A stretch of DNA of 35,006 nucleotides, from NCBI GenBank assembly GCA_012520395.1, contig JAAYOL010000111.1, positions 1 to 35,006 of the forward strand, written 5' to 3'. How positions within the stretch are numbered: position 1 is the stretch's first letter; each line of letters opens with the position of its first letter. The position numbers and the translations under genes were made by a program. Origin of the DNA: Clostridiales bacterium. Lineage in GTDB: Bacteria; Bacillota; Clostridia; Oscillospirales; Oscillospiraceae. The notes under the pieces were generated by a model, which saw only the letters and a list, made by a program, of their open reading frames with translations, ran no database searches and had not been told where the DNA came from. Positions 17,970 through 19,706 of this stretch are shown here, one piece after another.

Positions 17970-18006
17970 TAAAAAACCTGCGGGACTTTACTTTACTGTC
18001 CCGCAG
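17970..18006 (-). terminator. Riboswitch terminator before the CDF gene
   Basis: CTGCGGGAC (18006-17998) pairs with GTCCCGCAG (17986-17978) and is followed by six U (17976-17971). The 5' arm uses bases that also belong to the aptamer core, so folding of the two is mutually exclusive. Confidence 0.88.
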
Positions 18007-18085
18007 ATGCCAAGGTTGACTCTGCTGCCGCCAAGGCGGCCCGGCACGAAGCCTGATCATTTTGTACTGTAGCGTTGTGCAGTGC
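17995..18085 (-). ncRNA. Probable NiCo (cobalt/nickel) riboswitch
   Basis: The leader contains, in order, CAGGC, GCCGGGC, a GCCGCC/GGCGGC hairpin, GGCAGCAGA, TCTGC and GGGACAGT, closely matching the 3' two thirds of the NiCo (czcD) class as I remember it; P4 would be GCAGA/TCTGC and P1 CTTT-ACTG/CAGT-AAAG. The expected second stem is poorly formed by eye, so confidence is moderate. Known members bind Co2+ or Ni2+, prevent terminator formation and turn on CDF-type exporters, exactly this arrangement. Confidence 0.58.
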
Positions 18086-18138: not shown

Positions 18139-18648
18139 TTATGGCCTTATCTCAATAATTTCCAGCCCCTTGCTGATTGCATATGTAATCGTCTGAAAGG
18201 TTCCTCCGAAAGTGCCGTCGTAAACCGCAACCAGAACCGAGGAGTTATCGACCATATAGCGGTTTCTTTTGTGCATGCAGTCTTTAGTATACTCATGCTG
18301 AATAACGGTTTCATAATCGCATTGGTGTACCAGGTAATTATATCGCCTTCGCTCGCGCTTGCCCCAGAGCTTCGTCTGCTCCTCACAGGGAATTGCGGCC
18401 TCAAGCGTTACCTCATTATGCTCAGCCCGCAGTCTTATGACTGCCTCACAGAAGTACATATCCGACCCGACGGCCATGCCGCAGATGTAATGCCTTATAC
18501 CCGCATTATATAGGGCTTCGACAATGTCATACAGCCTTTCCTTGAGAAGCAGGCAGCGCTCGTCGTCGTGATTCCCGCGCCAGGGCAGCTTTGAGCTGCG
18601 GTGCCCGGTGAAGCAGCAGGAGTTTTGTCTGTTTATATCAGGTGTCAT
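18139..18648 (-). CDS. YpsA-like SLOG-family protein (DUF1273), 169 aa
   Basis: A Rossmann-like nucleotide-binding SLOG fold: CCFTGHRSSKLPW at the start, YICGMAVGSDMYFCEAVIRL in the middle, and RNRYMVDNSSVLVAVYDG followed by GGTFQTITYA near the end, all typical of YpsA/DUF1273. B. subtilis and S. aureus YpsA disturb FtsZ-based division when overproduced; a bound nucleotide-type ligand is suspected, not known. AGGAGG precedes the ATG. Its promoter carries a LexA-type SOS box inside the spacer, so DNA damage induction is predicted. DUF1273 genes also occur on mobile elements, but base use here resembles the neighbours. Confidence 0.85.
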   Translation of the reverse strand: MTPDINRQNSCCFTGHRSSKLPWRGNHDDERCLLLKERLYDIVEALYNAGIRHYICGMAVGSDMYFCEAVIRLRAEHNEVTLEAAIPCEEQTKLWGKRERRRYNYLVHQCDYETVIQHEYTKDCMHKRNRYMVDNSSVLVAVYDGTFGGTFQTITYAISKGLEIIEIRP

Positions 18649-18767
18649 CTTATGCCTCCTGTGGGGGGAGTTTCCTCATTGTACGATTACCCTATCGGAG
18701 ATGGGGGCGAAAGCAAGCTCTTTTTAAGTATATGCGGCACCAAAAGGATACACGCACCATAATTTGC

Positions 18768-18797
18768 ATTATACAACATCGAACATATGTTTGTCAA
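18768..18797 (-). promoter_or_regulatory. Sigma-A promoter of the YpsA-like gene
   Basis: TTGACA (18797-18792), 18-base spacer, TATAAT (18773-18768) on the minus strand, about 120 bases before the ATG. The long 5' UTR shows no recognised motif. Confidence 0.75.
18780..18793. promoter_or_regulatory. LexA (SOS) operator
   Basis: CGAACATATGTTTG matches the Gram-positive LexA/DinR box CGAAC-N4-GTTYG at every fixed position and resembles the operator of B. subtilis lexA. It fills the spacer and touches the -35 of the YpsA-like promoter, an ideal repression site. The ribU -35 lies 14 bases beyond it on the other strand. Confidence 0.75.
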
Positions 18798-18807
18798 AAA
18801 CTTTATC

Positions 18808-18835
18808 TTGATTTTTGCAAAATACATGCTATAAT
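18808..18835 (+). promoter_or_regulatory. Promoter for the FMN riboswitch-ribU transcript
   Basis: TTGATT (18808-18813), 16-base spacer, TATAAT (18830-18835) with a TG extension (TGC) just before the -10. Confidence 0.7.
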
Positions 18836-18859
18836 ATTGTCAAAACCGAATATGCTATG

Positions 18860-18968
18860 TCTTCGGGGCGAGGTGAAATTCCTTACCGGCAGTTAAAGTC
18901 TGCGAGCGGTTATCCGCAGGAATCGGTGAAATTCCGATACCGACAGTTAGAGTCTGGATGGGAGAAGA
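18860..18968 (+). ncRNA. FMN riboswitch (RFN element)
   Basis: All RFN landmarks occur in order: CTTCGGGGCGAGGTGAAATT, ACCGGCAGTTAAAGTCTGCG, a variable hairpin, GCAGGAATCGGTGAAATTCC, GACAGTTAGAGTCTGG and ATGGGAGAAG. FMN binding is known to turn downstream riboflavin genes off. It precedes a terminator and ribU. Confidence 0.96.
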
Positions 18969-19005
18969 CGCTTAAATGCTTTGCATTATTGCTTTGCCTT
19001 TTTGC

Positions 19006-19055: not shown

Positions 19056-19706
19056 ATGCAATTAGACACAAAGAAAATCACAATCATCGCTATGTTCTGC
19101 GCCATAGCCTATGTAATCGTAGTTTTTGTCAGGATTCCCGTGGTGCTTTTTTTGAAGTATGAGCCTAAGGATGTCATTATCACTATCGGCGCTTTCATGA
19201 TGGGGCCCTTTACCGGCTTTTTAATCTCTCTTATAGTGTCCTTGGTAGAGATGATCACAGTCAGTGACACCGGGCCGATAGGACTCCTGATGAACGTCAT
19301 ATCAACCTGCGCTTTTACCTGTACGGCAGCCTTTATTTACAAAAAGAAGCACAACATGAAGGGGGCGGTACTCGGTCTTTTTACAGGAACTGTTCTCATG
19401 ACCGCCTCAATGTTGCTCTGGAATTACTTAATTACGCCGCTTTACCTGAACATACCGCGCCCCGCTGTCGTGGCGCTCTTGATTCCCGCTATATTGCCAT
19501 TTAACCTTTTGAAGGCTGGAATAAACATGGCTCTAACTATTTTACTGTATAAGCCGATTGTAACCGCGCTTCGCAAGGCAAACCTTCTCCCCCCGTCTCA
19601 GAGCGGGGTGAAAAAGGGCAAAATAAACCTTGGCTTTATGATTTTTGCCCTGGTATTGCTCATAACTTGCGTGCTGCTAGTTTTGGCGATGAGGGGTATA
19701 ATATAG
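19056..19706 (+). CDS. ribU: Riboflavin transporter S component RibU, 216 aa
   Basis: Membrane protein of the ECF substrate-binding (ECF_trnsprt) family with about six helices. YEPKDVIITIGAFMMGPFTG and NVISTCAFTCTAAFIYKKKH are typical RibU regions. It captures riboflavin and works with the shared ECF ATPase/T module encoded elsewhere. The FMN riboswitch directly upstream gives the substrate. An earlier in-frame ATG exists, but it lies before the terminator; GGAGGAAGAG places the start at 19056. Confidence 0.92.
   Translation: MQLDTKKITIIAMFCAIAYVIVVFVRIPVVLFLKYEPKDVIITIGAFMMGPFTGFLISLIVSLVEMITVSDTGPIGLLMNVISTCAFTCTAAFIYKKKHNMKGAVLGLFTGTVLMTASMLLWNYLITPLYLNIPRPAVVALLIPAILPFNLLKAGINMALTILLYKPIVTALRKANLLPPSQSGVKKGKINLGFMIFALVLLITCVLLVLAMRGII

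Follow-up and report, generated by a model that had tools for sequence, protein, structure and literature searches.

LexA acts as the switch that governs the SOS response to DNA damage, and SOS responses usually contain a brake on cell division, the inhibitors being YneA in Bacillus (a small LysM protein of ~100 AA), SulA in E. coli and DivS in Corynebacterium. YpsA is widespread in Firmicutes, its structure has been solved and its overproduction gives a strong phenotype; we know of no signal to which it responds and of no physiological occasion on which it acts. Oscillospiraceae are common anaerobes of the gut and elsewhere, and to our knowledge little work has been done on their SOS response.

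In both B. subtilis and S. aureus an excess of YpsA stops cell division (PMC6459960), as the initial annotation of the DNA studied here had stated for YpsA homologues. The gut SOS meta-regulon (Cornish et al. 2014, PMC3998124) includes LexA sites of gut Firmicutes, among them one at mraZ, a gene which carries a box in the family studied here too; in contrast to the LexA-boxed ypsA described below, YpsA is absent from its main text. The C. difficile LexA regulon (PMC4234289) has the same clostridial GAAC-N4-GTTC/T type of box as found here, and a text search of that paper for cell division, sulA or yneA came back empty. Searching the open-licence literature for LexA together with YpsA or DUF1273 returned no relevant paper, so that, as far as searched, LexA control of ypsA in LexA-bearing Oscillospiraceae is undescribed, in line with the initial annotation, whose author knew of no such link.

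The window analyzed here (the whole stretch of 35,006 nucleotides) is one contig of a 1.86 Mb genome that is 98.9% complete. On its minus strand ypsA (18648-18139) encodes a 169 AA SLOG-family protein, the assignment to DUF1273/YpsA being borne out by a PF06908 profile match of 82.7 bits (E = 3.9e-23), above the curated cut-off of 27.7. The promoter of the gene, described beforehand as a consensus one, indeed agrees with the consensus at 12/12 positions, with a -35 TTGACA (18797-18792, minus) and a -10 TATAAT (18773-18768, minus) separated by a spacer of 18 bp. A 14 bp LexA box, CAAACATATGTTCG on the minus strand and CGAACATATGTTTG on the plus strand, lies at 18780-18793 and scores 18.5 bits with a matrix derived from lexA promoters; as had been claimed, it agrees with CGAAC-N4-GTTYG at all fixed positions. 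The description of this box as filling the promoter spacer needs adjustment, since it covers 12 of the 18 spacer bases and takes in the final two bases of the -35 element as well.

A pattern match of this kind is weak when taken alone: sites with up to one mismatch occur four times in the window where 3.1 are expected, which is not decisive, and the case for a LexA box gains its strength from conservation in relatives. At the scale of the genome, which was scanned with patterns and not with the matrix, the exact CGAAC-N4-GTTYG pattern occurs a single time in 1.86 Mb, at ypsA, and just three sites differ from CGAACATATGTTCG by at most one base. Besides that of ypsA, these are in the promoters of dinB and of a radical-SAM DNA modification/repair gene (TIGR03916), both carrying CGAACATATGTTCT, so that the ypsA box keeps the company of SOS genes. 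The genome encodes one clear LexA (PF01726, 89.8 bits; TIGR00498, 207.8 bits against a cut-off of 110.95), and its gene has a box of its own, GGAACAAATGTTTG, located 85 bp 5' of the lexA start and overlapping the -35 region. By contrast with these genes, recA (C145:17160-17945) may not be directly under LexA in this genome, because no core site with up to one mismatch was found within a 3-kb region around it and its start follows shortly 3' of a preceding reading frame.

To follow the box across Oscillospiraceae we used the core GAAC-N4-GTTC, which was detected with no more than one mismatch and near the expected place in 31 of 86 distinct orthologue upstream regions, against 4.2 expected from dinucleotide shuffles. 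The initial annotation had made its proposal depend on conservation of the box in orthologous promoters, and the box is kept: all five of the nearest orthologues (at least 73% identity) have it, at the same offset from TTGACA. Moreover, a scoring matrix was built solely from the boxes at 34 lexA promoters, a restriction chosen to avoid circularity, and applied to genomes divided according to the presence of LexA. At a threshold of 8 bits the ypsA box was present in 25/40 LexA-bearing genomes (shuffles 1.8) and missing in the other 15, whereas it was found in only 2/45 genomes in which LexA was judged absent by profile search of drafts, some of them incomplete (shuffles 2.2). At 11 bits or more the figures were 24/40 and 0/45, while control windows taken from the same loci gave 6/483 and 1/745. 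As a calibration, the repair radical-SAM gene was scored with the same matrix, which recovered a box at 20 of its 24 promoters; the rate at ypsA is thus only somewhat under that of a gene of established SOS type.

The co-occurrence of LexA and the ypsA box gives a Fisher p of 3.9e-9 with related genomes treated as independent, a value that overstates independence because the co-occurrence is phylogenetically clustered: on the YpsA protein tree the presence of LexA switches about five times, with a single well-supported independent contrasting pair, so that a phylogenetically corrected test has no power. The excess in LexA-bearing genomes, the lack of one in the others and the promoter geometry described below stand independently of this p-value. 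Among the 85 family genomes examined, 45 lack a full-strength LexA match, near-complete genomes among them, and LexA appears to be absent from whole branches of Oscillospiraceae. Orthologue-like ypsA genes from other families of the order showed a box in 1/23 cases, with no enrichment; for this reason the link between LexA and ypsA is claimed for Oscillospiraceae only.

The position of the box relative to the promoter allows its owner to be named. In the window ypsA is divergent from a second transcription unit, whose promoter TTGATT-16-TATAAT (18808-18835, plus) serves an FMN riboswitch (18855-18973, plus; RF00050, 108.3 bits) and a gene for a ribU-like S component of an ECF riboflavin transporter (19056-19706, plus; PF12822 and PF07155); this unit is context only and lies outside the LexA unit. 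The same divergent arrangement of ypsA and FMN riboswitch-ribU is seen in many relatives, LexA-bearing ones and beyond. Since the box sits between two divergent promoters in the window and in many of those relatives, it could be thought to serve ribU instead of ypsA, the more so as in 17 loci it starts 20-23 bp 5' of the ypsA -35 and is thus upstream of both -35 elements. Nevertheless, the box occurs in three arrangements, each in fixed phase with the ypsA promoter: besides the 17 loci just mentioned, it starts 4 bp past the start of the -35, and so overlaps that element, in the clade of the window (five loci, counting the window and the four relatives closest to it), and it adjoins the ypsA -10 in three others. 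Furthermore, out of 20 loci scanned with Rfam (19 box loci from the wider family and one from the nearest clade), seven keep the ypsA box although an FMN riboswitch is missing upstream, and in two of these the locus has tRNA or 5S rRNA genes instead; these counts were taken from Rfam, a simple regular expression giving too low a number. The box therefore belongs to ypsA, and on its geometry together with those seven loci we discarded it as a ribU element, a reading to which we give hardly any weight. A coincidental match, or a site for a different regulator, is nearly as improbable, even though the matrix is short and palindromic and one-mismatch matches are frequent by chance in the window. 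Such a reading would have to accommodate 25 boxes in 40 LexA-bearing genomes where 1.8 are expected, with no excess in genomes lacking LexA, obtained with a matrix that owes nothing to ypsA, as well as the fixed offset to the promoter; we rejected a chance match on the rarity of the site genome-wide and its conservation across the family.

Taken together, ypsA is very probably under LexA/SOS control in LexA-bearing Oscillospiraceae, as the initial annotation had proposed from the box alone; the conclusion now rests on sequence comparisons that include a box at lexA itself and a family-wide ypsA box which tracks the presence of LexA and keeps a set phase to the ypsA promoter. In the clade of the window LexA would exclude RNA polymerase by sitting on the box, which overlaps both -35 and spacer; at lexA promoters the same motif likewise extends into the -35. 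For the 17 loci with the box further upstream repression is less obvious and is an assumption, and LexA could act differently there. Upon damage, RecA on single-stranded DNA would trigger self-cleavage of LexA, and ypsA would be expressed along with lexA, dinB and the radical-SAM repair gene. YpsA would then work by means of the conserved nucleotide pocket of its SLOG fold, and most likely growth or division would be braked during damage, as with YpsA overproduction in B. subtilis or S. aureus. The box, its promoter geometry, its conservation and its association with LexA are observed, as is the conserved pocket; the binding of LexA, a response of ypsA to damage, a ligand and an effect on division are steps that we infer. 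LexA control would give YpsA an occasion, DNA damage, across a whole bacterial family, and if this is true a protein with a SLOG nucleotide pocket joins the SOS response.

What the protein itself might do was approached through a structure model (22 orthologues in the alignment, mean pLDDT 94). The best match of the predicted structure to a solved fold is B. subtilis YpsA (2NX2), with a Z of 23.4 over 162 residues, followed by DprA (Z 14.6) and the DprA-like ShosA (Z 13.8), and then by Moco carrier, LOG and ThsA SLOG domains. The likeness to DprA and ShosA, which are DNA-linked SLOG folds, is confined to the SLOG core, at 15-17% identity. Both the window protein and that of B. subtilis belong to the same Pfam family (PF06908, the 'YpsA proper' clade of the SLOG superfamily) and keep the GxD/E motif, although they share only ~21% identity; and whereas B. 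subtilis ypsA is paired with gpsB, that pairing is not present here, ypsA having as neighbors a cation exporter and the FMN riboswitch-ribU unit and carrying a LexA box in its promoter. Invariant in the 22 aligned sequences are the GxD motif (G61, D63), R128-N129 and G148-G149-T150. In B. subtilis the substitutions G42A, E44Q, W45A, G53A, E55Q and W87A each abolish filamentation (PMC6459960), and the equivalent residues here are G50, R52, H53, G61, D63 and W95, respectively. The set needed for division inhibition is thus incomplete in the window protein, G42, G53, E55 (as D) and W87 being kept and E44 and W45 replaced; as judged from the alignment, the SLOG pocket is retained and two division-relevant positions are replaced. 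A search against the PADLOC defense families gave zero matches.

The initial annotation had suggested that the gene may be a division inhibitor, and this part of its proposal is plausible as a candidate role: the YpsA-like predicted fold with its GxD pocket fits it, while the change of E44/W45 to R/H and the existence of mraZ as a competing LexA-linked division gene do not. YpsA as a division brake is a candidate, and tentatively the leading single idea, because of the overproduction phenotype in other Firmicutes, because SOS responses usually have a brake, and because no YneA-sized LysM protein is seen. Regarding the latter, whose absence had been put forward as a check, all LysM matches in the genome fall in frames of at least 250 AA, judged by LysM frame size, so that a LysM-less YneA could escape; the ypsA product itself, a SLOG protein, is not YneA-like. 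It would resemble YneA, SulA and DivS in being LexA-controlled and in perhaps restraining division after damage; these are unrelated proteins, in contrast to which the window YpsA has a SLOG fold with a nucleotide-type pocket and a division effect that is putative. The more specific proposal, that YpsA is the Oscillospiraceae SOS division brake, binding a nucleotide signal of damage, blocking FtsZ assembly in a ligand-gated manner and replacing YneA/SulA, is rather unlikely as a whole. YpsA is in any case a testable candidate for a lineage-specific division brake in this family.

Under the same LexA control the protein might instead be DprA-like or nucleotide-handling, aiding repair, or sensing or processing a nucleotide released by damage, such as a derivative of NAD or ADP-ribose, and to this we assign a chance not far short of even. 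The nearest solved folds after YpsA are those of DprA and ShosA, a match that is partial and says nothing on function, so that binding of a ligand or of DNA stays putative; moreover, the protein has other residues in place of E44 and W45, on which division inhibition depends in B. subtilis. In a disc assay the B. subtilis ypsA null differs from wild type with H2O2 only and not with mitomycin C, and other YpsA branches accompany NAD salvage and nucleotide signaling (PMC6459960). Against such a role stands the observation that two different Firmicute YpsA proteins block division when overproduced. With a fold resembling DprA, two substituted residues and a B. subtilis null whose phenotype shows with H2O2 but not with mitomycin C, a role in repair or in nucleotide sensing is in sum as likely as a role in division. 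A further alternative is that SOS control of division in the family runs via mraZ, YpsA having a side role. With the lexA-promoter matrix a LexA-type box was found 177-218 bp upstream of mraZ (mostly 177-198) in 22/31 LexA-bearing genomes, the source genome included, and B. subtilis LexA bound a gut-metagenome mraZ site in the EMSA experiments of PMC3998124; the mraZ box in Oscillospiraceae extends that single site as reported there. Nonetheless, in the source genome the box (C132:6023-6036) lies well 5' of the visible mraZ promoter, and mraZ and ypsA could both act, so we regard control through mraZ with YpsA on the side as doubtful.

Two other observations were made along the way. A 100 AA protein encoded divergently from dinB (contig C47), with no NCBIfam match, has the LexA box in common with dinB and is possibly an unknown SOS protein. 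Finally, in the gap that separates ypsA from the cation-efflux gene (17943-17041), the minus strand of the window carries a NiCo riboswitch (17994-18070; RF02683, 59.7 bits), which has its own promoter at 18133-18105, again with a 12/12 match to the consensus.
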